Positions 33,445-64,000 of a stretch of DNA of 64,000 nucleotides are shown piece by piece. The position numbers were made by a program, and so were the translations under genes. The stretch's first letter is position 1. Each line of letters starts with the position of its first letter. A model generated the notes under the pieces. That model worked only from the letters and a program-made list of their open reading frames with translations, was not told the DNA's origin and made no database searches. Source of the DNA: Bacillaceae bacterium (GTDB taxonomy: Bacteria > Bacillota > Bacilli > JACDOE01); NCBI GenBank assembly GCA_017656255.1, contig JACDOE010000001.1:871205-935204 (forward strand), written 5' to 3'.

Positions 33445-34626
33445 TTATTGGGCCCGGTTGAACACCGCTTTCAGCACCGGACGGATTTCCTCCGGTTGCA
33501 GGTACTTCCAGAAAACTTCTCCGTAAATCAGGATATCCGAATGCAGATGCAGACCGATCAGATTTCCTTCCACACCGTAACTGGTACCGGAATTGCCTAC
33601 ATATCCCACGATGTCGTCGGTCGTCACCCGATCCCCCACTTTCAGATCATCCGGAATATCGGACAGGTGGACATAACGTACCATCACGCCCTGATCATAC
33701 TGGACCCAGACCTGTCTCCCACGCATTCTGTCCAGGATATAATCAGGCGTACGCGGCCTTTGTGCCGCTTCCCGCAGGAAAGCGTCCCTTTCTTCAAACG
33801 TCATTTCCCGATAATCATGATCTGCCCGCACGACCACCCCGTCCGCCATAGAATAAACCGGTGTATGCTGGTCCACATGAACTCCGACATAGCCGCTGTA
33901 CCAATCAATCCCTTCATGCGTACCGTTTCGATAGCTACGTGGGGCTCCCGGAAGATGAGAGTCTTTGTCACTGATTTTTGCGCCTTTGATCGGTAAAGAC
34001 AAAAAGGAAAGATAAGAACTGATTGCTTCCGCATCCATCGTTGGAAGCACGGGATCTTGAGTTCCCTTGAATACAGGTGATGTCTCTGTGCCTGTACCGA
34101 TTGTGGCATCCCGAATCACAACCTGATTCTCACCAGAGACAACATCCGTTTCCAGCCCGAGTCCCTCGCGAACAAAGGTAATCGGGACCTGGATCTCTTT
34201 TCCTTCTTCTTCAATAAGCGGCTGACACCGGACCGGCAAATACACCCCGTTACGTTCGAGCACCGGTGCTCCCTTGATCATTTTGAACCGATCACCGCCC
34301 ACGGCAACTTCCACCAGGCCATTGACCGCATCATAGTTCAGCGTTCCTTCAAATGCGTCAACCAGCTGATTTAAAGAAATGTAGGACTGGCCGTCAACCT
34401 CTCGGAACGCCAGGGCAAGTTTCGGTTCAGGTTCCGGCTTCGGTTCACCTTCCCCTTTTTCCGAAATTGAAGCTGGTGGTTCCCCTTCCTTAACGTTTTG
34501 AGGATGGCCATTCGTCTGATCAGTCTGATCATGGGCGCTCGACGACGAGTAAGCGAAAAACATCACCGTTGAGAAGACGATTAATACAGAGATAATACCC
34601 GCAAAAATCCATATTTCTTTTTTCAT
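33445..34626 (-). CDS. Secreted M23 peptidase with copper-amine-oxidase-like stalk domain
   Basis: A 393-residue membrane-anchored or secreted protein: N-terminal hydrophobic segment (about 5-26), an acidic E/P/K-rich linker (about 45-70), a stalk domain of the copper amine oxidase N-terminal type (about 72-172), then a LytM/M23 domain. Metal ligands are HEGIDWY (about 239-245, HxxxD) and HLHSD (about 362-366, HxH). M23 enzymes cut peptide bonds in peptidoglycan. A roughly 30-residue helical insertion (RPRTPDYILDRMRGR region) sits inside the peptidase domain. It is next to another stalk-domain protein; SpoIIQ-like sporulation roles are possible but not shown. Confidence 0.85.
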   Translation of the reverse strand: MKKEIWIFAGIISVLIVFSTVMFFAYSSSSAHDQTDQTNGHPQNVKEGEPPASISEKGEGEPKPEPEPKLALAFREVDGQSYISLNQLVDAFEGTLNYDAVNGLVEVAVGGDRFKMIKGAPVLERNGVYLPVRCQPLIEEEGKEIQVPITFVREGLGLETDVVSGENQVVIRDATIGTGTETSPVFKGTQDPVLPTMDAEAISSYLSFLSLPIKGAKISDKDSHLPGAPRSYRNGTHEGIDWYSGYVGVHVDQHTPVYSMADGVVVRADHDYREMTFEERDAFLREAAQRPRTPDYILDRMRGRQVWVQYDQGVMVRYVHLSDIPDDLKVGDRVTTDDIVGYVGNSGTSYGVEGNLIGLHLHSDILIYGEVFWKYLQPEEIRPVLKAVFNRAQ

Positions 34627-34763: not shown

Positions 34764-35366
34764 CTACTCGACGTAAATCACATTTTGTCCTACTGTTACA
34801 TAATCGGAATCCGGTGTTTTCATCAGGAATTTCACGGTATAATAATCCTGAGATTCTTCAAAGGTAAACTCCGGAACTTTCTGGGTAAAAATAAACCGGC
34901 TATCAGTAAACATGCTTGGTGAACTGCTGAATTGTTCCGTTCCATCCTGGTCTTCTATCACGACTTTAAAGAACAGTTCTTCCGCTTCCGGTGCCTGTGC
35001 AACTTCGACGAAAACTTTAAATGTCAGGGTTTGGCCGGCTTTAACGGCCATAAAAGGATACAGCCTGTTGTCCTCACCGTTCTTGATCGCGGACACAATC
35101 ATATTGACATGGGGTTTCGTAATATTGACTGTTCCGTCTTCGTAGGAAACAAACCCGCCCATCTCCCGGGCCAGTGAACGAACCGGCGCGACAGATGTCC
35201 CTTCTATGACAAACGGAGGAACAGATGAATCCAGTGATTCTCCATTAATATTAACCCTGATGCTGGGATATTTATCGAATACCAGACCGGAAACGGGCTT
35301 TCCATAGACCGTGGTGATGCCGATAAGTAACATCAATGCCAGGATCAACCCGATTTTCTTTTTCAT
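34764..35366 (-). CDS. Secreted copper-amine-oxidase-like stalk-domain protein
   Basis: A 200-residue exported protein: signal peptide (about 1-22), a short stalk domain (about 35-90: INGESLDSSVPPFVIEGTSVAPVRSLAREMGG) and a C-terminal beta-rich region (about 95-200) with no recognised domain. The stalk domain occurs in many exported proteins of sporulating Firmicutes and is not itself an amine oxidase. It precedes the M23 peptidase, with its own terminator. Confidence 0.75.
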   Translation of the reverse strand: MKKKIGLILALMLLIGITTVYGKPVSGLVFDKYPSIRVNINGESLDSSVPPFVIEGTSVAPVRSLAREMGGFVSYEDGTVNITKPHVNMIVSAIKNGEDNRLYPFMAVKAGQTLTFKVFVEVAQAPEAEELFFKVVIEDQDGTEQFSSSPSMFTDSRFIFTQKVPEFTFEESQDYYTVKFLMKTPDSDYVTVGQNVIYVE

Positions 35367-44330: not shown

Positions 44331-46214
44331 TCATATGGAAATATCGGCTCCGGCCTCCCCGTTTTGACCGGTTTTTTCACGGACATACCGGGTCAGATCG
44401 GCACTCATTTCATAATAAGAAAACGGGGTGATAATATAGATGCCATTAAAATATTGTACGGCCTTATCGATTAATTCTTTCGCCATCTCCAGCCCTTCCT
44501 GCCGGGCTCTTTCACCGTTATAGCGTCCCATTCGTTCCAGAGCCTCGTCAGATAATTTGATGCCGGGTACTTCGTTATGCAGAAAATCGGCATTCCGCTT
44601 GCTAGTGAGAGGCATGATTCCGATGAAAATGGGTATTGGGATATGCCGTGTTCCTTCATAAATCCGGATAATGGATTCCTCATCATACACCGGCTGGGTC
44701 ATTACAAAATCGGCTCCGGCTTCCACTTTCTTCTCCAGACGTTTAACCGCCGCTTCAAACTTGCGAACATGCGGGTTGAAGGCAGCCCCTACGGTAAAGC
44801 GGGTCTGCTGTTTCATCAACCGGCCGGAATGGGTGATCCCCTCGTTCAACTGTTTGACCATACGAATCAAGTCAAAGGATGTTAGATCGAATACCGATGT
44901 GGCACCGGGAAGATCGCCGAAGCGGGACGGATCACCGGTGACCACCAGAATGTGATGGATATCCAGCGCATGAAGTCCCATCAGATGGGACTGCTGCCCG
45001 ATCAGGTTACGATCGCGACAGGCCATATGCAACAGCGGTTCGATCTTGAATTTGTTCTTGATAATGGCGCCGAGGGCCATATTGCTCATCCGCGTTGCAG
45101 CCAGGGAATTGTCGGCCAGGGTAACGGCATCCGCCCCCGCTTTCTCCAGTTCTTCCGTTCCTTTTAAAAACTTGTTGATATCCAGATCCCGCGGCGGATC
45201 AAATTCCACGATGACAGTATGACGTTGTTTGACCCGATCGACCAGATTAACTGATTTATTTTGTTTATCCTGAATAGAGCGGATTTTGCTGCGAATCTGG
45301 TTGGCGTTGACATCCGTTTTCGGATTGACACGTTCTACCGGTTTCAGACCATTGAGGGCTTCGGCCATCTCCCGGATATGCTCCGGTGTCGTCCCGCAAC
45401 ATCCTCCGATCAGACGAACCCCCTGTTCACGAAAACGCCGGGCATTTTCCGCAAAATACTGCGGGGAAGATTTATAGGCATATTCCCCGTCTGTAAACGC
45501 GAGCCGGCCTGCATTGGGAAAAATGGACAGAGGCGTATCTTCCGGCACCAGCGCATTTTCAATGGAGCGGAACATTTCAGCCGGTCCCATGCGGCAATTC
45601 AAGCCCAGAATGTCAGCCCCGCTTTCCTTCAGAATCTGAAACGCCTCGCTCAGACTATATCCGTCGCGGGTCCTCCCCACTTCCATCAACGCCAGCTGGG
45701 CAATAATGGGCAAAGACGTAAGCGGCCGAATCTCGTCCAGCACCAGCAGCAACTCTTCCACATCGAGAAACGTCTCCAGCAAAATACCGTCAACCCCGCC
45801 ATCAAGAAGGGCTTCCACCTGTTCCCGGTACTGGCTGCGATACCCTTCCATCGGAGAGTTGGAGACTTTACCAGCACGAATGGAGCCGACGGAACCCACC
45901 ACATAGGCATCCGTTCCAACCGCTTTTCTGGCAATCTCAGCCGCTACCCGGTTGATCTCATGCAGCTGATCCTCCAGGCCGTAACGGGCCAGACTTTCCC
46001 GATGCGCACCAAACGTATTGGTCGTGATAAAACGGGCTCCTGCCTCATAATAGGCCCGATGGACACTGGCAATCAGTTCAGGCCGCGACAGATTCAGTTC
46101 CTCATAACAGACCCCAACGGGGACGCCCTGGCCGTACAAATACGTAGCCATCGCCCCGTCACCCACAAGCAGGTGATCAGTCAGATAATCTTTGAGATTG
46201 GTCTTTTGATGCAT
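44331..46214 (-). CDS. Bifunctional homocysteine S-methyltransferase / 5,10-methylenetetrahydrofolate reductase
   Basis: A 627-residue fusion, as in B. subtilis YitJ. The N-terminal homocysteine methyltransferase (about 1-300) has the zinc cysteines in LNCRMGP (about 205) and IGGCCGTTPEH (about 269-279). The C-terminal part (about 330-610) is a MetF-type TIM barrel with EFDPPRD at its start, VTGDPSRFGDLPGA and MTQPVYDEE. It makes methyl-tetrahydrofolate, the methyl donor for MetH, and carries a methyltransferase half homologous to the MetH front end. I chose ATG 46214 behind GGAGGAAAAG. The gene follows metH by 25 bases in the same S-box operon. Confidence 0.93.
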   Translation of the reverse strand: MHQKTNLKDYLTDHLLVGDGAMATYLYGQGVPVGVCYEELNLSRPELIASVHRAYYEAGARFITTNTFGAHRESLARYGLEDQLHEINRVAAEIARKAVGTDAYVVGSVGSIRAGKVSNSPMEGYRSQYREQVEALLDGGVDGILLETFLDVEELLLVLDEIRPLTSLPIIAQLALMEVGRTRDGYSLSEAFQILKESGADILGLNCRMGPAEMFRSIENALVPEDTPLSIFPNAGRLAFTDGEYAYKSSPQYFAENARRFREQGVRLIGGCCGTTPEHIREMAEALNGLKPVERVNPKTDVNANQIRSKIRSIQDKQNKSVNLVDRVKQRHTVIVEFDPPRDLDINKFLKGTEELEKAGADAVTLADNSLAATRMSNMALGAIIKNKFKIEPLLHMACRDRNLIGQQSHLMGLHALDIHHILVVTGDPSRFGDLPGATSVFDLTSFDLIRMVKQLNEGITHSGRLMKQQTRFTVGAAFNPHVRKFEAAVKRLEKKVEAGADFVMTQPVYDEESIIRIYEGTRHIPIPIFIGIMPLTSKRNADFLHNEVPGIKLSDEALERMGRYNGERARQEGLEMAKELIDKAVQYFNGIYIITPFSYYEMSADLTRYVREKTGQNGEAGADISI

Positions 46215-46239
46215 CTCTTTTCCTCCGCTCCCCATTTTT

Positions 46240-49200
46240 CTATTCCTCCGCTCCGACATTGAAATACCTGGCTTCCGGATGGGAAAAGACCATCGCCGAC
46301 ACCGACGCTTCCGGCTCCATCATAAACCCGTCTGTCAGCTGGATTCCGATATCTTCCGGTTTCATCAACCCGAACAGTTTGGCCTGGTCTTCCAGGTTCG
46401 GGCAGGCCGGATAACCGAATGAAACACGAATTCCCTGATATTTGGCGGCAAAACGTTCCTGCATCGTCATATCCGCCGGATCCGGGATTCCCCAGGCATC
46501 CCGGATCATATGGTGCAATCGTTCTGCAAAGGCTTCTGCCAGCTCCAGAGCCAGTGCCTGCAGAAGATGGGACCGCAGGTAGTCCCCTTTTTCCTTCCAT
46601 GCCGTAGAAAGCTCACGAATGCCTTCTCCGGCCGTCACATTCAAAAAGGCCACATAATCTTTGACGCCGCTTTCCCGTGGACGGACAAAGTCAGCCAGGC
46701 ACAGGTAAGGCGCCTGTTTTTGCCGTGGAAATGAAAAACGTTCGATTTCCTGCTCCGGATGCTCCGGGTCAAAGATCACAATATCATCACCTTCGGATTG
46801 AGCCGGGAAAAACCGGTACATGCCATGCGCCTTGATGATCCCTTCTTCCTTCGCTTCCGCCAGCAATCGGTCTGTTTCCTGTTTCAATTCAACGGCACGG
46901 GGATCCTGTTCCGCCAGGAGTTTTTCCACTTTGCCGCGCAGACCGAGATGCTTGCCGAGAAGCATCTGCAGGTTGAGGTAGGGTGTCAAGTGATCCAGTG
47001 GATAATCACGCAGAATATGCCGTTTAAAATCCGGTGGCTGATAGACCGGTGCTTCCTGAGATACGTCGGAACGGCGGCGTTCGGCGGGTTGTCCTTGATT
47101 GTCCGGTTGATCCGCCTTGTCCGCAGAAGGTGATGAGACCGATGCCCGATCTTTTGCTGACTTATCGGCCAGTTGTGCCCGTTTTTCCGGGTTCATCAAC
47201 TGGTTGGCCAGATCAAGGCCATTCATGGCATCTTTGGCATAGACGACAATGCCGTCATACTGTGGCGCAATGCGGGTCTCGGTAAATTTTCGGGTGAGGG
47301 CCGCACCCCCGACCAGTAAGGGAACATCGATACCGGCAGCTTTCAGATCCTGGGCAGTGACGATCATTTGCTGGGCAGATTTGACCAGCAGACCGGACAA
47401 ACCGATCATATCCGGTTTTTCCTTTTGACAGGCCTCAATCAACTGTTCCGGCGTCACTTTAATACCCAGATTGACCACTTGATACCCGTTATTGGACAGG
47501 ATAATATCCACCAGATTTTTGCCGATATCGTGCACATCCCCTTTTACCGTCGCCAGCAGAATTTTGCCCTTGACGCTGCTTTCTTTCTTCTCCATATAGG
47601 GCTCCAGATGGGCCACGGCCGCTTTCATCGACTCGGCACTCTGCAACACCTCGGCCACGATCAATTGATTATCGTTAAACAGGCGTCCCACTTCTTCCAT
47701 CCCGTCCATCAGGGGACCATTAATGATATCCAGGGGATCGTCATACTTCTGCAGGGCTTCATCCAGGTCTTTCGCAAGCCCCTCTTTCGTCCCTTCGATA
47801 ATATAATGGGCCAGCCTCTCTTCCAGACTCATCGTCGACGTTTCACGGGGTGTACTCTCCTTTTTCTGACGGTAAAATTCGGTAAAGGTCTGCAGCGTCT
47901 GATCATCGGTCTCGAACAGGAGTTTTTCCGCCATCTGGCGTTCTTCTTCCGGAATGGAGGCGTAACGCTCCAGTTTTTCCGTATTGACAATGGCATAATC
48001 GAGGCCCGCTACCGTACAGTGATAAAGAAATACGGCGTTGAGTACTTCCCGCCCGGCAGGGGGCAGTCCGAATGATACGTTACTCACCCCGAGGATGGTC
48101 TGGGTACGGGGCATCGCTTCTTTAATCAGACGGATGCCTTCCACGGTTTCCTTGGCTGAACCGATATAGGCTTCATCCCCCGTTCCCACCGGAAACACCA
48201 GCGGGTCAAAAATAATGTCTTCCGGTTGCAGGCCGTATTGATTGACCAGCAAGTCGTAAGAGCGTCTCGCCACTTCCAGTTTCCTTTCCCGGGTGACGGC
48301 CATCCCTTCCTCGTCGATGGTACCGACGACCACCGCCGCTCCGTATTTGTGAATGAGCGGGACGACCTGGGCGAAGCGTTCTTCACCGTCTTCCAGGTTA
48401 ATCGAGTTGATGATGGCTTTACCCTGGGAATATTTGAGGGCCAGGTCGATGACGTCCGGGTCCGTTGAATCGATCATGAACGGCACTTTCACCTTTTTGG
48501 TGACATATTCAAGAAAACGGCGCATGTCTTCTTTTTCATCGCGGTCCGGGTCGGCCAGGCAGACGTCAATCACCTGGGCACCCCGTTTCACCTGGGCACG
48601 TGCTATTTCAGATGCTTCTTCATATTTGCCTTCGGCAATCAGCCGGCGAAATTTTCTCGAACCAATGACATTGGTTCTTTCTCCGACGAGAAGCGGCCGG
48701 TTATCTTCTTCGAGATACACCGGCTCGATCCCCGAGACGGCCGGCGGATGTTCGCCGATCACCTGACGGGGTTGATAGTCTTTGAGTGCTTCAGCTAATG
48801 CCCGAATGTGTTCCGGGGTGGTTCCACAGCATCCCCCGGCAATATTGAGCCAGCCTTTTTCTGCGAAGCCGGCCATCTTTTGCGCCAGTGCCTGCGGGGA
48901 TTCATGATAATGTCCGTCTTCATCCGGCAGACCGGCATTGGGATAGCAACTCACCGCATAGCGTGACATGCCGGACAGCGTCCGGATATGATCCCGCATG
49001 AATTCCGGACCGGTGGCACAGTTCAGACCGACGGAGATCGGTTTCAAATGTTCCAGTGAGATATAAAAAGCCTCAATATTCTGACCGGCCAGGGTGGTTC
49101 CCATAGGTTCAATGGTTCCCGAGATCATGACGGGAAGTTCCCGGCCCGTTTCCTTAAACGCCCGGCGAATCCCGATACTGGCCGCTTTCACATTGAGCGT

Positions 49201-49707
49201 ATCCTGTGCAGTTTCTAGGAGCAACACATCCACGCCACCCTCGATCAGGGCACGTGCCTGTGCATAATAAGCCTGTTCCAGTTGTTCAAACGTGGTGCCT
49301 CCGGTGACCGACAGGGTTTTGGTGGTCGGTCCCATCGAACCGGCGACAAAACGTGGCTGCTCTTCGGTAGACCACTTCTCCACGGCCCGGCGTGCGATTT
49401 CGGCAGCCGCCTTGTTAATCTCTTCAACTTTGTCCTGCAGATCGTACTCGGCCAGTACAATGTCCGTCGCACCGAAAGTATTGGTCTGAACGATGTCCGC
49501 CCCGGCTTCCAGATAGGATTCGGTGATCTCCTGAATCAGATCGGGACGGGTCAGATTCAACATTTCGTTACATCCATCATATGCTTCACCGCCAAAGTCC
49601 TCCGCCGTCAGGCCGGCCTGCTGGATCATGGTCCCCATCGCACCGTCCAGAACCAGAATTTTTTTCTTCATTTGTTCCTTGAACGCCCTGCTTCTTGATG
49701 CCACCAT
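46240..49707 (-). CDS. metH: Cobalamin-dependent methionine synthase, full length
   Basis: A 1155-residue MetH with all modules: homocysteine domain (about 15-325; zinc ligands in GLNCATGPE near 227 and GGCCGTTPEH near 292-301), folate/pterin domain (about 335-600, starting ERTNVIGSRKFRRL), cap helices (about 640-720), B12 domain with DVHDIGKN (His near 727, the axial ligand), and the SAM-dependent reactivation domain (about 890-1155, with FGYPACPNLEDQ). A disordered polar linker rich in Ser, Asp, Gln and Arg (about 845-885) joins the last two. It transfers methyl from methyl-tetrahydrofolate to homocysteine. The ATG at 49707 has GGGGTG upstream; an internal ATG at 49671 with AAGGAA is an alternative. 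Confidence 0.96.
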   Translation of the reverse strand: MVASRSRAFKEQMKKKILVLDGAMGTMIQQAGLTAEDFGGEAYDGCNEMLNLTRPDLIQEITESYLEAGADIVQTNTFGATDIVLAEYDLQDKVEEINKAAAEIARRAVEKWSTEEQPRFVAGSMGPTTKTLSVTGGTTFEQLEQAYYAQARALIEGGVDVLLLETAQDTLNVKAASIGIRRAFKETGRELPVMISGTIEPMGTTLAGQNIEAFYISLEHLKPISVGLNCATGPEFMRDHIRTLSGMSRYAVSCYPNAGLPDEDGHYHESPQALAQKMAGFAEKGWLNIAGGCCGTTPEHIRALAEALKDYQPRQVIGEHPPAVSGIEPVYLEEDNRPLLVGERTNVIGSRKFRRLIAEGKYEEASEIARAQVKRGAQVIDVCLADPDRDEKEDMRRFLEYVTKKVKVPFMIDSTDPDVIDLALKYSQGKAIINSINLEDGEERFAQVVPLIHKYGAAVVVGTIDEEGMAVTRERKLEVARRSYDLLVNQYGLQPEDIIFDPLVFPVGTGDEAYIGSAKETVEGIRLIKEAMPRTQTILGVSNVSFGLPPAGREVLNAVFLYHCTVAGLDYAIVNTEKLERYASIPEEERQMAEKLLFETDDQTLQTFTEFYRQKKESTPRETSTMSLEERLAHYIIEGTKEGLAKDLDEALQKYDDPLDIINGPLMDGMEEVGRLFNDNQLIVAEVLQSAESMKAAVAHLEPYMEKKESSVKGKILLATVKGDVHDIGKNLVDIILSNNGYQVVNLGIKVTPEQLIEACQKEKPDMIGLSGLLVKSAQQMIVTAQDLKAAGIDVPLLVGGAALTRKFTETRIAPQYDGIVVYAKDAMNGLDLANQLMNPEKRAQLADKSAKDRASVSSPSADKADQPDNQGQPAERRRSDVSQEAPVYQPPDFKRHILRDYPLDHLTPYLNLQMLLGKHLGLRGKVEKLLAEQDPRAVELKQETDRLLAEAKEEGIIKAHGMYRFFPAQSEGDDIVIFDPEHPEQEIERFSFPRQKQAPYLCLADFVRPRESGVKDYVAFLNVTAGEGIRELSTAWKEKGDYLRSHLLQALALELAEAFAERLHHMIRDAWGIPDPADMTMQERFAAKYQGIRVSFGYPACPNLEDQAKLFGLMKPEDIGIQLTDGFMMEPEASVSAMVFSHPEARYFNVGAEE

Positions 49708-49835: not shown

Positions 49836-49871
49836 CCCATGATAATCACGCTATCATTTTTAAACGCCTTT

Positions 49872-49982
49872 CTTATCTCTCAGAACCCTCGGGGTCCTGC
49901 TGGAATTAGCACCGCTGCAGGAAAAGCTTCCTGCCGGTTGCCGGGTTTCATAGGGCCAGTCCCTCCACCTGCTCCGGATAAG
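49872..49982 (-). ncRNA. SAM-I riboswitch (S-box) controlling metH
   Basis: Read on the minus strand: P1 strand CTTATC (49977-49982), the core blocks GGTGGAGGGACTGGCCC and TGAAACCCGGCAACC, then GGTGCTAATTCC, and the closing P1 strand GATAAG (49872-49877). This is the standard S-box consensus. When SAM binds, P1 forms and the downstream terminator can fold; without SAM, AAGAAAGGC, which shares bases with P1, can pair with GCCTTTCTT and prevent termination. The remainder of the 470-base gap between metH and the coat gene holds the promoter (below) and about 130 bases with nothing recognisable upstream of the coat gene. Confidence 0.95.
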
Positions 49983-50015
49983 AATGGATTCCGATATTTA
50001 AAAAATCTTGTAACC

Positions 50016-55059: not shown

Positions 55060-58000
55060 TCAGTCATAGATCTCCACTTTGTGATCATCAAAAATATCTC
55101 CGGACACCAGTAACGTTTTCATGTCCGTGACGGTTTTTAAGCTACCATCCCAGGGCGATATTTTGGTCGCTGTGTAACGCAGCGTATAAGTTCCATCCTG
55201 TGTCGGCAGTGGGATAATCACATCCTTGCCCCAGTTATTTAGCTTTGTTGAGGTTGAGAATTCTGGTATCAAATCAATTCTCTCGTTTTCATCATTGAAA
55301 TCCCCGTCCTTGTTCCAGTCTACCTCTACAAATACATGCTGTGCTTTTCCTTCTGTATCGGCTGTTAATGTAATAGCCTGTCCAGAATGAGCCTCATACG
55401 GGTTTAAGTCTCCTGTAATTCGTAGTGGATCTTCAACGATCAGGTGCTGAATCTGCCAATCGGACCATAGTGTTGGCGATAATCCATTTGGTGACGTATC
55501 TTGAACCCGGTATTGAATGGTGTATGTGCCAACCCCATCATTTGGGAATCCAACTGCCTCAAATATTTGGATGAACGCACTGCTCATATCCTTTGGTGTT
55601 CCAGAGCCTTTCCCATAACGACCGGTATATGTCTGAGACACACCGGACTCCTGCTGTGTCACAATCAGTTCATAAGCCTGCAGCTTTTTCCCTTCCGGAT
55701 CTGTGGATCGATCGATCCATGTTAAAGGCTCGTCCGCCGGTACGGGATTAGGCGATAATACCAGGTTAGCGACCGGCTTGTTATTTCCTTCCACAACCGT
55801 TAAAGTGCGGGTGAACCAGGATGACCATTTTGGCGTAAGCTGGCTTAATGCCGGCTGGTCCTTAACCCGTAGCGCTATGTCATAGGTGCCGGTTCCAAGC
55901 GATTCAAAGCTGGTTGGCTTCCCGCTTATCCATGCTCCGCCATCCTTTCTGTATCTCCACTGCCAGGCTACAAGCGGATCGCCATCCGGATCATAGGATG
56001 TATCATGGTAGCTTACATCGACATCCTGCGGGACGGGGTTAGGGTTGACAGTAAATCTGGCAACAGGCGGCGTATTTGCCGGTATGACCTCTAACGTCTG
56101 ATAAAACGGTTCTGACCAGGCCCCATACGAATCTTTTACGGTCAGTTCGATTGAATAGGTACCGGTCTGTGAAAAAGAGACAGGTGGATGTGAACCATAG
56201 TCAACCCAATTGCCGGAGGGATGCTTTATTCTCCAGCGGTGTTGGGTGATGGTATCCCCTATGTCCGGATCATAACTTCCTGATGCATCATAGCTGGCCA
56301 CTTTTCCAACAGGAAGCGGATTGGGAAAAACCGTAAAGTGGGCCACCGGGGGTACATTGAGATTGTCAGTGCTAATTACTTTAACGTTAGGGTCCGACCA
56401 GACGCCTTCCTTATCCTGAACCCTTAAGTAAACCAAGTAGAACTTTCCGGGATTCAGGTAAGTTGGTTTTCCCGAATGCCAGGTGCTTTCAGATGCTTCT
56501 TTCCACTTCCACTCTGTTGCCACAATCCCTTTACCCGATTCAGACTCATGATCCAGATCATATGACAAGTCGTTAAAAAAAACCCTGTATCGATTCGATT
56601 CTTCTATTGTATAAAAATTAAACTGGGAGATCGGTTTGCGATGGACATAAATCCATAACGTGTCTACCGGCATATCGGACCAGAGTCGATAATTGTCGAA
56701 CCTATCATCATTTTTGGGGTTATCTTTCGCCTGAAATACGACTTCATATTTGCCTACTTTTGAAAACCTTGTAACAGGATCCGGTATAAATTGATTGTGG
56801 AAACTGGCCAATCCAAGCGAATTATCAAAGTAATTCGGATCATGCGTGTACATCCACCGGCGTTCAATCTCCGGATCGTTTTCCTGGTCAACATACGATG
56901 TTTCGTATTGAATTTCTTCATCCAAAAGAAGGTACTGAACGGGGTCCCCCTGTTTCAATTCTACCTGAGATATAATATAATCCGCGATCTGTGAGAGAGC
57001 TGTATCCATGTTGTTGTTATAGACAAACGTACCTTTTCCATCATTTTGTTCGATGATGTCTTCTGCCTGGGATTTGTTTGCGTTTGTTCCCATGACACTG
57101 AAGTGAATCTTTTCATTCAACAAACGTGAGAGAATGACGGATGACTTTTCCTGGTCGTTAAACTCAGCAAATTCTTTATCGCTGATACTAACCACAAAAC
57201 GCTGGGCATCTTCTCGCCAGTTTGGTTCTTTGAGGACTTCATCGAGTGATCTACCTGTTTTTGCTGTGATTTTTACATTTTTAAAATACCCTTTACGTTG
57301 GCTGCTGGTAAATGGGCCGTACCCGCCTTCAAGCAAGGGGTTATTGTTATCTGTGTAATTGATGACCTGAGATCCGTCTATCCATACCTTGATGTTATTA
57401 CCTTTGGCATGAATTTTTACATTGTACCAGCGTCCGACACTTCTCAAGAAAGGAATATCAATAAGTTTTATCCAACTGGAACCTACGCGTTTCCAGAGAC
57501 CTGATTGATAAGCTCCCCCACCATTAGTAATAAAAGCATAGTAACTGTATGTGTTAAGATTAGTGGGATCTGTACCGTTATGAGTCATTCGGAATGTGAA
57601 CCCAATGTTGTCATCATCAACCCAGCCCCCATCATTATCAAGCTGCGCCATATCGAATTCAATAATGGTCTCTTTGGCGTTATCTTCTTTCCAGAAACCT
57701 GTCCATCCCACATTTTGCGTCGTACCCAGCGCTTTAATGGAAGGATCATAGTGCCATTGTCCTCTATCATTCGGATAATTCTCCCAGGTGCTGAAAATAG
57801 CTTGAGCGTCTGTACTATTCGTACTGATCTTGCTTGTTGAAATCGCCTCGATCGTGCCATAGTCAATATCCATCGCAGACAGTTTGGGAATTACAATGGA
57901 ATTAATTTTGGCATTTAAGTCTTTCGTTTTAGACTCAGCCGCTTCTCCAACTGTAAAAACAATATCGACTTTCTTTCTCGGGAGTGTTGTAAAGTTGGTA

Positions 58001-60381
58001 ACCGGCTGAATGTTGATGACTTCAACTGTTGATTCGGATAATGACTTAGTTGATGTATCCCCTGTCAATTTGTCCGCTTCTGTCAGGAGTTTCGGTATCG
58101 TCGACTGGCCGAAAGATTCTTCAGCATACAAATAAATCTGGTATTTCCCTACATCCGGCACAAGAAGAGATGGTTCTGGTTCGTTGCCATCACTGAACGT
58201 GATCCAACTTTCATCAACAAATGAACCGTCATTATCGGTGTCGTAACGGTATTTCCATACCCGTTTGCTAATCACATCCTGGTCCGGTGAGTAAGACTCG
58301 TCGATGATTTCGATTTTAGCTTTCGTTCCATGAGATGGATCTCGAAGAGCCTTTTTAACCAGATAAAAATCAATGACCGGGTCCTGGTCCGGATAAATTT
58401 TAACGTCTTTTTCCACCCACTCCGACCAGTGGCCGGCACTGTTTCGTACCCGCAACCTGACCTTATAGTCACCCGGTTTTTTAAATAATAGTTTCTTGAC
58501 TTCCTGTGTGGACAGGTTGGAGCTGATTTTAATATCCTCCTCCGTGATATCGAGAGACAGGGGGATAAATTCAAACTCGTAATCGGTCATAGGAAAGACC
58601 GGTGATGTAAAGGATTCTGATCCATCAGCCACAAACAACCGGTTCTGCTTAAAATACTGGCCGAAATTCAAAATGGCGGTGGGAATGGCCGGCTGTACCT
58701 GAATCGATTCCGTGGTGCTGTCGGATAATTCATCTCCACCATGAAGACCGCCATCCGTTACGGTCAGACCGATTTCATAATCCCCTTCTTTCATAAACTG
58801 GATTTTAATATAATCCTGTGTTTCTTCATGAATGATAAAATCACTTTCGGTTAAGGGTGCGACGGGCGTTACCGTCCACTGAGCATCGGCAATGGATCCA
58901 TCTCGATCATAAGAGTCATTTTCGTAGGTGATGATGTCGCCCTGCAGTGGTTCTGAATCTCCACCTATTTTAGCTGTGGGAGGTTCGTTGGCAGCCAGGG
59001 CTCCGATTTTATGATCGGTACGATCCGTTAACCCGTCATTGTCTGTGACTGTGATACTGATGGTAATACTGCCACTGTCTTTTACTTTAAACCTAATACG
59101 GCTGTCTGATTTAGAAAGCACATCGATCTTCGAACTGGGGTAATCCCAGGAGACATCCACAATTTCACCGTCGGAGTCGTAGGAGTCGTTGGTTACGACA
59201 ATGGTATCTCCTTCAATCGCTTCTCTGGGGCCATCCAGAATAGCGATGGGGCCTTCCAGGGGAGCTGATGCGGAAATGGTATGAGTGGTAGAACCTGTAT
59301 TGCCATCATTGTCCGTGACTGTTAAACCAAAGGTGACGGATCCGGATGTATCCAGTTTGAAGGTGATCTCATCCTCGGATTTGCTTTCAACACGGACTCC
59401 GGAAGGTACGTCCCAGACACTTTTGACAATCGTACCGTCCGTATCATAGGAGTCGTTGGAAAGGGTGATGGTATCCCCTTCCTGGCCTGTGGTCGGACCA
59501 TTAATGATGGCAATCGGGTTGGCTGTGGATCCTTCGACCTGAAAGGTATAAGTGGTGGATGAGTCCGTTCTCCCGTAATAATCTGACACTTTAATCTGCA
59601 GGATGTTGGGGCCTATCTGGAGTTGGGAATACGGAATGGTATAGTCGCGGGAAATGGTGATAGCAGGAGAAGTCCTTTTTTCCCACGGATTCCATGCTTC
59701 GTAAGATTTGTTAAGCTTGCCGTTTAGATAGATTTTGTCGATCTCTTTGCGGAACCAGTAACCTTCTGTTTGATATTCATAACTGATGATGGCCGCTTCC
59801 CCTTCAGCTACGGTGGCAGATGAAGGGCTTGAGCCGTTGACGGATACATCGAGGATTTGCGGGCCGTTGGTTAAGGCATAACGAACCCAGCCGGGGTCTG
59901 CTTTCCAGTCTTTGCTGTATCCATCTCCCTTACCGCCGCTGTATTCAACGATTTCGGAGAGGTTGTAGTAGGTTTGGGTGGAATAGTTGTAAGTAATTTT
60001 GTACTTTCCTATCTTTCCTTGACTGATAAAACTTCGTATCGTGGCCGGATCTCCATTTAGTCCTCTAACCCAGTCATAGAGCACACTGGAGTGAATCAGG
60101 GGATATCCGTTATTTAAATTGATGTCTGTCCTGTAAACACCGACTGCCATTCCGATGGTGCCATTTAGATCGGTTCGGACTTCGGTGTTTTTGGAACTGG
60201 CCGGGGCTTCTGTACCATCTGGAAGAGTAATTTTTAGCTTGTCGGTACCAATTGGAAAATGAGCATTAGAATCTATCCCTGTAGCATATGAATTAGGAAG
60301 GAAAGGCTGGACAGAAATTAGTCCAGCCAATAAAGTTACAACAAGGAAGATTGAAATATATTTTTTTATTTTTGTTCTCAT
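55060..60381 (-). CDS. Giant secreted PKD-repeat protein with interrupted VWA-like domain
   Basis: About 1773 residues, exported: signal peptide (about 1-35). After a unique region (to about 285) come three classic PKD domains (about 290-375, 379-465, 469-565; each with the NDSYDxDGxI motif), further PKD-like repeats (to about 797), then a VWA-like start KVDIVFTVGEA (about 805-855), a LamG-like concanavalin domain (about 858-1045, with WTGFWKEDN and VGRWYNVKIHAKGNNIKVWIDG), the apparent second half of the VWA fold (about 1058-1140) and five more PKD-like repeats to about 1652. No sortase motif or transmembrane anchor is visible at the C-terminus. The VWA segment lacks an obvious DxSxS metal motif. 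It is the last gene of the Tad-like operon, so a surface adhesin is likely. ATG 60381 has GGGAG 9 bases upstream. Confidence 0.8.
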   Translation of the reverse strand: MRTKIKKYISIFLVVTLLAGLISVQPFLPNSYATGIDSNAHFPIGTDKLKITLPDGTEAPASSKNTEVRTDLNGTIGMAVGVYRTDINLNNGYPLIHSSVLYDWVRGLNGDPATIRSFISQGKIGKYKITYNYSTQTYYNLSEIVEYSGGKGDGYSKDWKADPGWVRYALTNGPQILDVSVNGSSPSSATVAEGEAAIISYEYQTEGYWFRKEIDKIYLNGKLNKSYEAWNPWEKRTSPAITISRDYTIPYSQLQIGPNILQIKVSDYYGRTDSSTTYTFQVEGSTANPIAIINGPTTGQEGDTITLSNDSYDTDGTIVKSVWDVPSGVRVESKSEDEITFKLDTSGSVTFGLTVTDNDGNTGSTTHTISASAPLEGPIAILDGPREAIEGDTIVVTNDSYDSDGEIVDVSWDYPSSKIDVLSKSDSRIRFKVKDSGSITISITVTDNDGLTDRTDHKIGALAANEPPTAKIGGDSEPLQGDIITYENDSYDRDGSIADAQWTVTPVAPLTESDFIIHEETQDYIKIQFMKEGDYEIGLTVTDGGLHGGDELSDSTTESIQVQPAIPTAILNFGQYFKQNRLFVADGSESFTSPVFPMTDYEFEFIPLSLDITEEDIKISSNLSTQEVKKLLFKKPGDYKVRLRVRNSAGHWSEWVEKDVKIYPDQDPVIDFYLVKKALRDPSHGTKAKIEIIDESYSPDQDVISKRVWKYRYDTDNDGSFVDESWITFSDGNEPEPSLLVPDVGKYQIYLYAEESFGQSTIPKLLTEADKLTGDTSTKSLSESTVEVINIQPVTNFTTLPRKKVDIVFTVGEAAESKTKDLNAKINSIVIPKLSAMDIDYGTIEAISTSKISTNSTDAQAIFSTWENYPNDRGQWHYDPSIKALGTTQNVGWTGFWKEDNAKETIIEFDMAQLDNDGGWVDDDNIGFTFRMTHNGTDPTNLNTYSYYAFITNGGGAYQSGLWKRVGSSWIKLIDIPFLRSVGRWYNVKIHAKGNNIKVWIDGSQVINYTDNNNPLLEGGYGPFTSSQRKGYFKNVKITAKTGRSLDEVLKEPNWREDAQRFVVSISDKEFAEFNDQEKSSVILSRLLNEKIHFSVMGTNANKSQAEDIIEQNDGKGTFVYNNNMDTALSQIADYIISQVELKQGDPVQYLLLDEEIQYETSYVDQENDPEIERRWMYTHDPNYFDNSLGLASFHNQFIPDPVTRFSKVGKYEVVFQAKDNPKNDDRFDNYRLWSDMPVDTLWIYVHRKPISQFNFYTIEESNRYRVFFNDLSYDLDHESESGKGIVATEWKWKEASESTWHSGKPTYLNPGKFYLVYLRVQDKEGVWSDPNVKVISTDNLNVPPVAHFTVFPNPLPVGKVASYDASGSYDPDIGDTITQHRWRIKHPSGNWVDYGSHPPVSFSQTGTYSIELTVKDSYGAWSEPFYQTLEVIPANTPPVARFTVNPNPVPQDVDVSYHDTSYDPDGDPLVAWQWRYRKDGGAWISGKPTSFESLGTGTYDIALRVKDQPALSQLTPKWSSWFTRTLTVVEGNNKPVANLVLSPNPVPADEPLTWIDRSTDPEGKKLQAYELIVTQQESGVSQTYTGRYGKGSGTPKDMSSAFIQIFEAVGFPNDGVGTYTIQYRVQDTSPNGLSPTLWSDWQIQHLIVEDPLRITGDLNPYEAHSGQAITLTADTEGKAQHVFVEVDWNKDGDFNDENERIDLIPEFSTSTKLNNWGKDVIIPLPTQDGTYTLRYTATKISPWDGSLKTVTDMKTLLVSGDIFDDHKVEIYD

Positions 60382-60403
60382 GATTTTCAACTCCCTATTC
60401 AGA

Positions 60404-61750
60404 CTACTTCCATACCTTTACTTCGATATTCGGAAGGTAAATATTTGCGTCAATGATAGCTATACCTCCTCTTATATCAGCTATCATAATACCAAGATAA
60501 CCTTTTGTTCCATCTGCCTCAAATTTTACCCCACCTCTACCAAATCGTTCGCCATAAAGTTCTTTAAATTCCCGATCATTACTTTCGCTCCATGAAGGAC
60601 CGTCAAAATATGTCCATTCCAGACTAATCGTATAGCCTTCCTTTACCTTAGGTAAGTACCCTGAAACAACCCCATCTTTAATATCTAAAGACTCCACCAA
60701 TTCCTGCAGAATCTGCTCCCCATACTCTTCAACCTCAATCCTGGCTTTCATATTCTCGATATATCTGACAGCATCCGTTTCAGAGATAACCTTGTTTTTA
60801 TGTGAGTCATATTCTTCACGAGTAATTATTTTATAACTCACGGCTTTTCCCCAGAGATTGTCTCTATATCCCAGGGCTTTAATAATCAGTGTCGCCGCAT
60901 CCTCCACCGTCACATCCCCATCCGGATCCACATCAACCACATCCAGAATACCGGCGGCCTGAGCCTTCTGATAATACTCCTCAGCCCAGTGTCCTTCTAC
61001 TTCCTCAACCGGCTCTGTTTCGGTATATCCCATGGCGTCAACCAGCATCTTCATAAACTCAGCCTGAGAAAACTCGGCAACATCTTCCCCTTCTACCGGT
61101 TGTGGCTGTGACTGTTCAGACAGCCTGTCCAGTGTACGCAGCACCATCACCACCGCTTCAGCCCGGGTCGCCTTTTTCTCCGGCCCAAACGTTTCATCCG
61201 GATATCCAAGTACAATGCCCAGATCATTGGCGATCTTGACATATCCTCTCCAGTCTTCATCAATGGTGTGCAGATCCTTCAAGTCACTATCTATCGCTTC
61301 CCACTTCACTCTGTTTTCAGCATCCGCTTCCATCCCCAGGGCACGAACCGTCATAACCGCGATCTCCCGGCGCGTGATGTTTTTGTTTGGTTCGAACTTC
61401 AAGCCCGGGTATTCATCTGTTTTGACGATTCCACTTCCAATGGCCGCCTGGATGTAACCTTCCGCCCAGTTGTTGTCATCCACAAAAACGGACTCATTCG
61501 CTGATTGTTGAATCTGCAGGGCAACCACCAGTGATTTGGTAAACTCGGCCCTGGTGATATTGTGATCCGGCCGGAAAGTCTGATCCGGATAGCCCTGAAT
61601 AAATCCAAGCTGAATCGCCTGATTCACCTGATTTTTGGCCCAGTGACGGTCCACATCGGATAGTTTCACTCCATTCGCCTCAACTGCCAGTCCACCTGCC
61701 AACTGGACAAACAACGCCAGAACAAGTGATAAAATCATCATTTTTTTCAT
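60404..61750 (-). CDS. S-layer homology (SLH) domain protein
   Basis: A 448-residue exported protein: signal peptide (about 1-25), three SLH repeats (about 30-75, 90-140 and 165-215) with the motifs ITRAEF, ITRREI and ATRAEAV, a fourth degenerate repeat (about 250-300, GHWAEEYYQKAQAAGI), and a C-terminal domain (about 320-448) that I do not recognise. SLH triplets bind pyruvylated secondary wall polymers, so it should sit on the cell wall. It lies between a stalk-domain protein and the giant PKD protein in one operon. GGAGGGG precedes the ATG. Confidence 0.9.
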   Translation of the reverse strand: MKKMMILSLVLALFVQLAGGLAVEANGVKLSDVDRHWAKNQVNQAIQLGFIQGYPDQTFRPDHNITRAEFTKSLVVALQIQQSANESVFVDDNNWAEGYIQAAIGSGIVKTDEYPGLKFEPNKNITRREIAVMTVRALGMEADAENRVKWEAIDSDLKDLHTIDEDWRGYVKIANDLGIVLGYPDETFGPEKKATRAEAVVMVLRTLDRLSEQSQPQPVEGEDVAEFSQAEFMKMLVDAMGYTETEPVEEVEGHWAEEYYQKAQAAGILDVVDVDPDGDVTVEDAATLIIKALGYRDNLWGKAVSYKIITREEYDSHKNKVISETDAVRYIENMKARIEVEEYGEQILQELVESLDIKDGVVSGYLPKVKEGYTISLEWTYFDGPSWSESNDREFKELYGERFGRGGVKFEADGTKGYLGIMIADIRGGIAIIDANIYLPNIEVKVWK

Positions 61751-61769
61751 TAGAATCCCCTCCACATGT

Positions 61770-62612
61770 CTAATTCTTTAAAATCGTAATCTCTTTTTTG
61801 TCCTCATCATAAAGAATGGTGTAGCCCAGTGCCTCCGCAACAAACCTCAGTGGAATATAGATTCTCCCCTGATCACGGACTGCTGAAAGTGACACCGGTT
61901 CAACTTTCCCATTCACAATAGCCGTATCTTTCCCCACAAACAGAAAAACGGAATGGAACCGATTTTGAATGGCTACCATGTCTAAATCTCCGTGATATTC
62001 AAGGTGAGCACCCAGCTCATCCAGAACGCCGCGAATCGGTACTACGGCATGTCCATCCACCATTTTTAACGGATCTCTCAAAACGTTAATTTTATGGGTT
62101 CCTCCGTCACGGCCAACAACGACCCGGGTATTATCCAGATACAGAATAACTTTACGGTTTTCTTTAGAATCATCAATTTTTAAGTCCGCATCCGATTCTT
62201 TCCGTAAATTTGTCGGAGCCAATGAATCTATTCTTCCAGAGGCAGACTCAACCAGTTCCTGATTTTCCTCATCCCAGATAAAAGAGTGTTTATACAGAAC
62301 CCCTGACGCTCCGCGAACGACCCATTCAATGTACTGGTCTTCTTCCTTTTCAAATTTAAAGGAAACTGTTTCGCCGCCCGTCCCGGAATAAATCTGGTCA
62401 ACCCCGTGGTAAAATTCAATCACATATTTGTCTTTCTCGATACCTACCAGGTCAACCTCAAACACCCCTTGATTTAATTTTGCACTGTTAATTTCAGCCA
62501 TCTCTAAAACCTGCCGGGCAAAATTGGTCTGATCTTCAGCAAAAGAAACCCCAGTAAGCAACAGGCAAAAACAAAGTGAACCGAACAACCCGGTCCGAAT
62601 TCGTTGATTCAA
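61770..62612 (-). CDS. Exported protein with copper-amine-oxidase-like stalk domain
   Basis: About 280 residues: signal peptide (about 1-25), a unique N-terminal beta-rich part (about 35-150), and a stalk domain (about 155-280) with two typical repeats ending VVPIRGVLDELGAHLEY and IYIPLRFVAEALGYTI. No catalytic residues of copper amine oxidases are expected in this domain. The start is TTG 62612 with GGAGGAGG 6 bases upstream. Fourth gene of the operon, 22 bases after the TadG-like gene. Confidence 0.8.
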   Translation of the reverse strand: MNQRIRTGLFGSLCFCLLLTGVSFAEDQTNFARQVLEMAEINSAKLNQGVFEVDLVGIEKDKYVIEFYHGVDQIYSGTGGETVSFKFEKEEDQYIEWVVRGASGVLYKHSFIWDEENQELVESASGRIDSLAPTNLRKESDADLKIDDSKENRKVILYLDNTRVVVGRDGGTHKINVLRDPLKMVDGHAVVPIRGVLDELGAHLEYHGDLDMVAIQNRFHSVFLFVGKDTAIVNGKVEPVSLSAVRDQGRIYIPLRFVAEALGYTILYDEDKKEITILKN

Positions 62613-62634
62613 CCACTCCTCCTCCAATCAGATG

Positions 62635-63201
62635 CTAGAATAGATCATTTTCAATGTTACTCAACATATCAATATCCAGATTGACAGTTTCTCCAAAGAG
62701 ACGAAACAAGGTTCTGACATTAACATTTATTCGGGAATATACTGATACCCTGTCTACCAACATGCCGTTTGGAGCTTCAACTGGAAGATCCTCAGATAAA
62801 TAAACATCAAATCGTTCAATCCGAACAGGACCTTCTATAATACTTGTATCGGTATTTATAGGAGTTAAAATAAATGGGTTTAATTCCATGTTATAGGATA
62901 AATATTTTTCAAAAGTCGCCCGACCCCGCCTGAGTCCTTCCATTCTGGGTTCATCTTTTCTATGTAAACGATAGGTTCCGTAGGCCAGCCCTTCTCGGTC
63001 CATATCTTTCCAGACAGCCATATTGGCAAAATCCAGGTCGTTTTTGACATGATGGACGGCCATATACAAATGAGCTATTTCAATTAACAAAAAGATCATC
63101 AAGCTTAAACCCAGGAGCAGGAAAACACCTAAAATGGCATTTCCGGTTCCCCGTCGATCTTTCATTAATTTTGCAATACCCCGATTATTTGAAATACTCA
63201 C
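62635..63201 (-). CDS. TadG-like pseudopilin/membrane protein
   Basis: A 188-residue bitopic protein: basic N-terminus (KLMKDRRGTGN), one membrane span (about 22-45) and an extracytoplasmic domain. The RRGTGNAILGVFLLLGLSL stretch looks like the TadE/TadG signature (RRG then hydrophobic helix). It overlaps the TadE-like gene by 17 bases. The start is GTG. Assignment as a Tad-system minor pilin rests on this pattern and the neighbouring prepilin peptidase. Confidence 0.7.
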   Translation of the reverse strand: MSISNNRGIAKLMKDRRGTGNAILGVFLLLGLSLMIFLLIEIAHLYMAVHHVKNDLDFANMAVWKDMDREGLAYGTYRLHRKDEPRMEGLRRGRATFEKYLSYNMELNPFILTPINTDTSIIEGPVRIERFDVYLSEDLPVEAPNGMLVDRVSVYSRINVNVRTLFRLFGETVNLDIDMLSNIENDLF

Positions 63202-63619
63202 GACTCACCGAACTCCTGCTTAACTCAATTTCAAACGGTTCCGAAAATGAAGAAAGAACCATTTGTTTTAACTGATAATCTGTATAATCCGTTTGATACA
63301 AAATTGTTAATTCCACTGTATTCCCATACTGAACAGGATAAGGCGTAGCACTTGAAATATGGATTCCAGACATATCAAAGTTAAATGCATTCAATCTATT
63401 TTCAATTTCCTGTTTTATTTCCGGCGTTAATCCTCCACTGGCTTCCATCTTCAGCAGAGCGGAACGATGAACATTTTCCAGGATCAACTCTTGAAAGATT
63501 ATTTTCACAGGTTGATAGAACTGGAGCAGGATAAACATTAATAGAAGAAATGTTGCTGCAAATGTAATCGCTTCAGCTGCCCCCCGGTGATCCTGCTTCC
63601 ACAATTTTATTAATCTCAT
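63185..63619 (-). CDS. TadE-like pseudopilin
   Basis: A 144-residue bitopic protein: KLWKQDHRGAAEAITFAATFLLLMFILLQFY at the N-terminus has the TadE pattern (basic residues, RGAAEA, long hydrophobic helix, about 12-35), followed by an extracytoplasmic domain. I chose ATG 63619 (AAAGGTGGGATCAC upstream); it overlaps the stop of the prepilin peptidase gene by 4 bases, showing translational coupling. Confidence 0.75.
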   Translation of the reverse strand: MRLIKLWKQDHRGAAEAITFAATFLLLMFILLQFYQPVKIIFQELILENVHRSALLKMEASGGLTPEIKQEIENRLNAFNFDMSGIHISSATPYPVQYGNTVELTILYQTDYTDYQLKQMVLSSFSEPFEIELSRSSVSREYFK

Positions 63620-64000
63620 GTGATCCCACCTTTTATTGGCCAGAGTATTTGAAGAAAAACCCCTCCTAAAAATGCGGGAGCATAGGGAACTTCCGGCTTC
63701 AGATCCCGTTCCTTCAACATATACAGTAAAAAGAGCGGCAGGCTGCATATCAAACTATAGACAAACATGTAAAACGTCCAGTCTCCTCCCATCAGTGCTC
63801 CCGCAGCCATAAGAAACTTTGAATCTCCCCCGCCCAGGGTTCTGGTTTGCCACAGAAAAAAAGAAAACAGTGCCATCAAGATAAAACCTACCAGCCAGAA
63901 CGAAGAAAAATGAAATAGGTGAAAACCACAACCTGCAAGGATTCCTCCAAACGTAAGCCAGTTCGGAATGACCCTGGACCTTAAATCAGTTGCCACCGCG
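63616..64000 (-). CDS. Type IV prepilin peptidase (TadV/CpaA-like), C-terminal part
   Basis: The gene enters from the right edge; 127 codons are visible. Aspartic-protease motifs of family A24 are present: the first Asp in ATDLRSRVIPNWLT and the second in GGGDSKF. Four or five membrane spans follow. The short size, with no N-terminal methyltransferase domain, is that of TadV/CpaA peptidases that process Flp pilins and TadE/F-type pseudopilins. Residues MATDLRS near 63996 could start a protein but the Asp would then be at residue 4, so I expect more of it outside. Confidence 0.85.
   Translation of the reverse strand, partial: AVATDLRSRVIPNWLTFGGILAGCGFHLFHFSSFWLVGFILMALFSFFLWQTRTLGGGDSKFLMAAGALMGGDWTFYMFVYSLICSLPLFLLYMLKERDLKPEVPYAPAFLGGVFLQILWPIKGGIT

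Follow-up and report, generated by a model that had tools for sequence, protein, structure and literature searches.

Type IV pili are known to aid conjugation in Gram-negative bacteria, as in the cases of TP114 (PMC9045228) and PAPI-1 (PMC5297154), and the type IV pilus of plasmid TP114 both helps mating in broth and selects recipients (PMC9045228). Gram-positive conjugation systems are presented in current reviews as having neither conjugative pili nor VirB11 (PMC12857230). Large adhesins that promote mating have been described as well, among them the surface protein PrgB of pCF10, which is sortase-anchored and has no pilus (PMC12857230), and the Ig-like-domain proteins of conjugative plasmids, for which the available part of the report describes no Tad genes (PMC8730810). 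On pLS20, deletion of the adhesin gene 34 (tie) lowers conjugation by a factor of approximately 1000 in liquid and of 15 on plates, loss of sortase has no effect on conjugation (PMC8092201), and the TIE adhesin is detected in the wall fraction (PMC11730352). A Cutibacterium acnes plasmid, in a Gram-positive host, carries a tad locus beside VirB4/TcpC-like genes, with its pilin seen by mass spectrometry, but the available part of that report contains no set of SLH, stalk and giant PKD genes (PMC5696575). Conjugation-aiding pili of Gram-negative bacteria, a Cutibacterium plasmid tad locus beside conjugation-like genes and the pLS20 mating adhesin are thus already known. What would be new, judging from sequence, is a module of Tad genes, stalk/SLH proteins and a giant PKD protein that is linked to Bacillota conjugation regions and has a putative function in mating. 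In the open-licence literature we found neither a description of such a module or of its place in Bacillota conjugation regions nor experimental work on the loci concerned.

The window analyzed here is a stretch of 64,000 nucleotides from a Bacillaceae bacterium (G000:C1:871205-935204), and the contig goes on to its right as a complete tad operon. The operon has tadA, tadB, tadC, tadV, rcpC and tadZ, together with putative flp and tadE/G, in common with the surveyed Tad/Flp loci of Gram-positive bacteria (PMC3244431). Unlike those loci, it closes with genes for the stalk, SLH and giant PKD proteins, and most of its relatives lie next to conjugation genes; neither S-layer nor von Willebrand proteins appear in that survey. 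The type IV pili of R64, TP114 (PMC9045228) and PAPI-1 (PMC5297154) are element-borne and separate from the T4SS, and their adhesin selects recipients, as we propose here from the genes; they differ in belonging to another pilus family, in their pilin-type PilV adhesin, which is varied by a shufflon, and in their double-membrane envelope.

Six co-directional genes occupy the right end of the window, with the overlaps and gaps that the original prediction had given (Table 1). Gene starts are those with a ribosome-binding site or Shine-Dalgarno-like site, by which the giant protein measures 1773 residues within an ORF of 1776. The TadE-like and TadG-like labels are supported by position and by homologues, although the support from Pfam is weaker than had been implied. 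The TadE-like protein matches DUF4320 below the cut-off (E 0.008), the one and weak family match for these two conserved, expectedly placed slots, and is 50% identical to an Ammoniphilus homologue; the TadG-like protein has no meaningful Pfam match and no VWA domain, and its homologues are present in the tad loci of relatives. Elsewhere in the window, a SAM riboswitch (Rfam RF00162, 80.8 bits) at 49870-49984 on the minus strand precedes an apparent methionine synthase gene pair (46240-49707 and 44331-46259). Away from the tad island, a second secreted protein, stalk-domain-like by eye, is encoded at 34764-35366, adjoined by a gene at 33445-34626 whose product matches the VirB1 wall-hydrolase profile.

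Table 1. Genes of the tad operon inside the window and beyond its right edge (window positions unless prefixed L009)
Feature	Position	Strand	Evidence and spacing
Giant secreted PKD protein, 1773 aa	55060..60381	-	PKD_4 1.8e-26, 4 stretches; gap 22
SLH protein, 448 aa	60404..61750	-	PF00395 2.4e-34, three SLH repeats; gap 19
Stalk-domain (Cu_amine_oxidN1) secreted protein, 280 aa	61770..62612	-	PF07833 2.1e-20; gap 22
TadG-like minor pilin/pseudopilin, 188 aa	62635..63201	-	Position and homologues; 17-base overlap with TadE
TadE-like (DUF4320) minor pilin, 144 aa	63185..63619	-	PF14208 weak; 4-base overlap with peptidase stop
TadV prepilin peptidase	63616..64000, cut by window edge	-	Peptidase_A24 PF01478 9.1e-13
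TadV in full, 138 aa (short form)	L009:9320-9736		Complete ORF beyond window edge
flp, tadC, tadB, tadA, cpaE-like, cpaB, tadZ-like, HTH, replication-relaxation-like, S1	L009:9739-18239	Same strand	Nearly gapless
Left part of ~17.5-kb operon/island	55060..64000	-	~8.5 kb more past window edge

Extension of the contig to the right, as the original prediction had suggested, bears out the Tad identification, which that prediction would have given up had tadABC or a pilin gene been missing: tadA, tadB, tadC, a putative flp and cpaB are all present there, and the six window genes make up the downstream half of an operon of approximately 17.5 kb. Its order is S1, replication-relaxation, HTH, TadZ, CpaB, CpaE, TadA, TadB, TadC, Flp, TadV, TadE, TadG, stalk, SLH and giant, including two ParA-like genes (CpaE/ParA-like and TadZ-like) and the HTH gene as regulator. 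TadA matches PF00437 of the T2SSE/VirB11 superfamily (1.1e-37) and, below the cut-off of that model, TIGR03819 (7.8e-60), and the adjacent TadB and TadC both match PF00482 (T2SSF) above cut-off. Flp, 57 residues long, reads KG-TPSIET at its processing region, with E at +5 and T at +6 as against the G/xxxxE(Y) motif, and scores 21.2 bits with PF04964, below the cut-off of 32.2. A 309-residue protein without any Pfam match resembles (phmmer E 5e-32 to 2e-9) proteins whose genes come after S1 on plasmids of Bacillales, two of these proteins being annotated as replication-relaxation family. Pattern matching reveals a good promoter-like site upstream of S1 and no convincing intergenic terminator on the minus strand of the operon. 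At 60305-60328 on the minus strand, near the start of the giant in its signal peptide region, a T-rich stretch comes after a GC-rich hairpin, possibly an attenuator or a chance occurrence. GC content is 0.41-0.45 across the locus, compared with 0.49-0.52 over 12 kb on the left side; on the right, values are mixed and include a further low-GC stretch at window coordinates of approximately 80-92 kb. At the island ends there are no notable repeats and no tRNA, and hence no attachment site can be named.

The coupling of tad, stalk/SLH and giant PKD genes, a layout that the original prediction had found unfamiliar, is conserved far outside the window genome, as seen in co-occurrence across genomes. 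In 400 Bacilli genomes, only three proteins are closely related to the window TadA (44-55% identity), after which scores drop from 372 to 207 bits; Clostridia contain a few relatives as well. Tad genes together with TadE, TadG, SLH and giant are found in Ammoniphilus resinae (giant of 1971 residues) and Aneurinibacillus tyrosinisolvens (1813 residues, 42% identity over nearly the full length), and G051 has tad, TadG, stalk and two PKD proteins. Desulfoscipio geothermicus, a Clostridiales MAG and G514 have tad, TadE, TadG, stalk and giant, with no SLH gene recognized. In a Peptococcaceae MAG the stalk and giant genes are on a contig other than that of tad, and in a Thermoanaerobacteraceae MAG a 710-residue protein takes the place of the giant. 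In the TadG query at the family level and the query with the SLH C-terminus at the order level, the window genome was the sole representative. A profile of 129 positions of the giant's core, made without information on tad or T4SS genes, matches 23 of the 379 Bacillota genomes and, in the Bacilli sample, 8 of 380. Among the 16 new core loci of the phylum sample with at least 15 kb of context, counted by hand, 12 have tad genes, 11 have conjugation markers and 15 have either. No tad was detected with the core proteins of G137 (contig C1), G019, G030 and G563, some of which have short contexts; in G137 this second core-domain giant, of 2283 residues (L098:8721-15572), adjoins an SLH protein, and no tad is recognized within 20 kb.

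The original prediction had read the locus as an adhesive surface appendage. That description is too narrow, since most relatives have the module inside a conjugation region. Comparison of the flanks reveals VirB4, a VirB1-type wall hydrolase, MobL relaxase, actin-like ParM (ALP), VirD4 and S1 around the loci of relatives. By profiles built here, at least one of VirB4, VirD4, MobL and ALP lies within approximately 25 kb of tadA in eight of nine same-clade relatives with long context, the exception being G051, whereas none of nine control tad loci has VirB4, VirD4, MobL, ALP, S1 or stalk, a strong contrast, but one in which flank lengths differ between the sets and are not matched. The controls were the next-best TadA matches, 40 kb each, with the tadA ORF itself recovered in eight. 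In the TadA tree the window sits inside a 99/99 clade of these loci, whose members lie near conjugation genes except for G051 (no markers) and G402 (short tad contig). The window genome itself carries a second tad locus with a stalk-domain protein on contig C6 (L012, L121; G000:C6:88001-128000), where an 816-residue kelch/propeller-like protein occupies the giant's slot and VirB4 and VirB1-type genes follow just downstream; this contig may be a plasmid or an ICE.

Homologues of the giant are found on 10 plasmids in PLSDB, all from Bacillota. A complete 61-kb plasmid of Cytobacillus gottheilii encodes, in order, VirD4, a CpaE-like protein, SAF/CpaB, CpaE, TadA, TadB and TadC (the latter two assigned by position), small prepilin-like proteins, an SLH+stalk protein and the giant, and further along VirB6/TrbL, a VirB4-like protein and a lysozyme. 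On a complete Lysinibacillus fusiformis plasmid the order is SLH, giant, TadA and two membrane proteins, with VirD4, VirB6, VirB4, lysozyme and MobP2 further on. The succession S1, replication-relaxation-like, tad and giant is present in Paenibacillus sonchi and Cytobacillus oceanisediminis, and a complete plasmid of Thermobacillus composti has S1, replication-relaxation, tad, SLH and a large protein; the window operon opens with the same S1 and replication-relaxation pair as these plasmids. Among the plasmid matches listed for the window TadA there are only distant CpaF proteins, nearly all Gram-negative, and the plasmid copies were reached through the giant and S1 because plasmid TadA is more diverged.

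A related layout is present on pLS20-like plasmids (PMC8092201) and pHT-beta, which share with these loci a large adhesin beside a CpaF/VirB11 ATPase, a TadE-like protein and a hydrophobic protein of 47-50 residues, then VirD4-VirB6-VirB4-VirB1. There the adhesin is followed by small proteins, CpaF/VirB11, a TadB-like protein, a membrane protein, the TadE-like protein and one or more of the hydrophobic proteins, with VirD4, VirB6, VirB4 and VirB1 further downstream. The TadE profile built here matches the pLS20-like and pHT-beta proteins (1e-5 and 6e-6), and DUF4320 matches them weakly. On pLS20, TadA and the TadE-like protein are recognized confidently and TadB weakly (hhalign 57%); homology to TadC was considered and dropped as unsupported. 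These plasmids differ in that their adhesin is of the thioester or SpaA-like type with no SLH seen, TadC is unrecognized, and the window copy has no T4SS.

Taken together, we consider it reasonably probable that the window locus is a T4SS-less copy of a mating-pair-formation module composed of a Tad pilus and a wall-linked giant adhesin. By likeness to the pLS20 adhesin and the TP114 pilus, the module would function in mating. Against this reading, profile searches of 114 kb around the window copy found no VirB4, VirD4, MobL/relaxase or ALP, that is, T4SS, coupling protein and relaxase are missing there, and G051 likewise has no markers. The giant-core proteins with no detected tad genes and the Flp score below cut-off also count against it, as does the limited recognition of TadB and TadC on pLS20.

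The alternative that survives best concerns the giant alone, which might be a wall or S-layer adhesin held by the SLH and stalk proteins and independent of the pilus, co-transcription coupling nothing but their expression; a mating role would be compatible with this. The SLH protein has a signal peptide (N-terminus judged by eye) and three SLH repeats, and SLH binding usually requires CsaB, which the genome encodes, such that the wall anchor suggested by the original prediction is plausible; its C-terminal region gives only weak matches across the class. An SLH gene takes this position in G137 and G181 as well as on plasmids, and is fused with the stalk domain into one protein on the Cytobacillus plasmid; it is an optional part, as a stalk-domain protein stands alone in that slot in Clostridia. 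In G137 (L064:9747-11063) and G181, the stretch between tadG and SLH, taken by the stalk gene in the window, holds ORFs that look IscB-/TnpB-type by eye. In favor of the pilus-independent giant, the gene directly or closely upstream of it encodes a stalk or SLH protein at 13 of the 19 informative new loci, mostly less than 100 bp away, some loci have SLH and giant without detected tad, and the pLS20 TIE adhesin is in the wall fraction (PMC11730352). On the other hand, tad genes accompany 12 of the 16 new loci, and the giant, which lacks an anchor itself, bears a recurring C-terminal tail motif that would suit docking to a shared partner. A pilus-independent giant has close to an even chance.

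Less probable, and in our view unlikely, is that the operon builds an ordinary Tad pilus for adhesion or biofilm formation with a giant adhesin, without a role in DNA transfer, the plasmids merely carrying genes for surface colonization. In other settings Tad pili function as adhesion organelles, transfer genes are lacking at the window copy and in G051, and the Cutibacterium plasmid tad locus is read mainly as a colonization factor (PMC5696575). However, the module lies within tra regions, between VirD4 and VirB6/VirB4 in Cytobacillus gottheilii or just ahead of VirD4 in Lysinibacillus fusiformis; similar layouts of adhesin and TadA occur on pHT-beta and pLS20-like plasmids, and it spans Bacilli and Clostridia, with no such linkage at other chromosomal tad loci.

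A further possibility was that the giant is a VWA protein at the pilus tip, like PilY1 or CpaL, that primes the pilus. The giant has a signal peptide, PKD repeats and a central core domain at residues ~1058-1186 of the 1776-residue ORF, preceded by a jelly-roll insert (PF06439/CBM66/LamG-like), and is without LPXTG, SLH and Cys. Across 14 giants compared, the C-terminus lacks LPXTG in all, Cys is rare in most, and a hydrophobic signal-peptide-like N-terminus is present in 13, the ORF of the 14th being interrupted upstream. The second half of the core is found in all 14 giants, and the stretch ahead of it is variable: a PF06439-type jelly roll in the window and G403, an RCC1 propeller in G051 and other sequences elsewhere. 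A variable insert on a fixed core would be consistent with a scaffold that carries a swappable binding domain. A short C-terminal tail motif recurs in 16 of 35 sequences versus 1.6% of windows, by a pattern defined after viewing the first sequences, and is possibly a docking tail. In G671 (C1:3026000-3062000), two similar giants share the C-terminal tail and each is preceded by a stalk-domain gene, an apparent duplication of the adhesin unit. The original prediction had labeled the giant as VWA-containing, a label that the sequence does not bear out: Pfam, NCBIfam and PDB profile searches find no VWA domain, Pfam detects no VWA family in the relatives' giants scanned, and the DxSxS MIDAS motif of VWA pilus-tip adhesins (PilY1, CpaL, PilB, RrgA) is absent, with DIVFTVGEAAES standing at the expected place. 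An AlphaFold model of residues 770-1330 from 4 sequences was poor (mean pLDDT 42); its low-confidence topology, a beta-alpha-beta unit, a jelly-roll/beta-sandwich insert and then beta-alpha repeats, is compatible with a VWA domain carrying an inserted binding domain, and Foldseek matches (CBM66, LamG, galectin and alginate lyase) concern the jelly-roll insert. TadG elsewhere often has a VWA part, which is lacking here. Precedents for VWA tip proteins are CpaL (PMC12607857) and PilB/PilC of S. sanguinis (cited in PMC12075869). Given the negative profile searches, the missing MIDAS motif and no pilin helix recognized at its N-terminus, a VWA tip role for the giant is quite improbable. That the locus is a decayed, non-functional remnant of an integrated element, as the absent transfer genes and a GC content below that of the left flank might suggest, is very unlikely, since every gene found is an intact open frame, Shine-Dalgarno-like sites are present where this was checked, and a good promoter-like site lies ahead of S1.

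In a mating-pair-formation module, the operon would build a Tad-type pilus along with a giant secreted adhesin, which the stalk/SLH proteins would link to the wall or S-layer. TadZ/CpaE-like proteins would position the machine, TadA, TadB and TadC would drive Flp extension once TadV has cleaved Flp, and TadE and TadG would serve as minor pilins. The giant, kept at the wall by the SLH/stalk protein, would be the contact protein that binds the partner cell, its variable insert being the likely binding part; in conjugative relatives, contact would be followed by movement of DNA through the neighboring T4SS. The sequences show gene content, conservation and the association with conjugation genes, whereas pilus assembly, adhesion, the mating role and the position of the giant, at the tip or at the wall, are what we infer here. 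The module would have evolved on plasmids and integrative conjugative elements of Bacillota, as their apparatus for mating-pair formation. Because transfer genes are missing around it, the chromosomal window copy today probably serves adhesion or aggregation, or helps in trans an element elsewhere, for example that on contig C6.

Gram-positive bacteria may therefore be equipped with a pilus and an adhesin with which to catch mating partners. More tentatively, many conjugative elements of Bacillota, pLS20 and pHT-beta among them, could have a true mating organelle in the form of a Tad-type pilus whose giant adhesin is exchangeable, a generalization we regard as possible but doubtful. If true, it would contradict the current view of Gram-positive conjugation as pilus-free, and would mean that a recipient-catching organelle extends from Bacilli to Clostridia, a likely basis of partner choice and of mating in liquid, and a possible target against plasmid spread.
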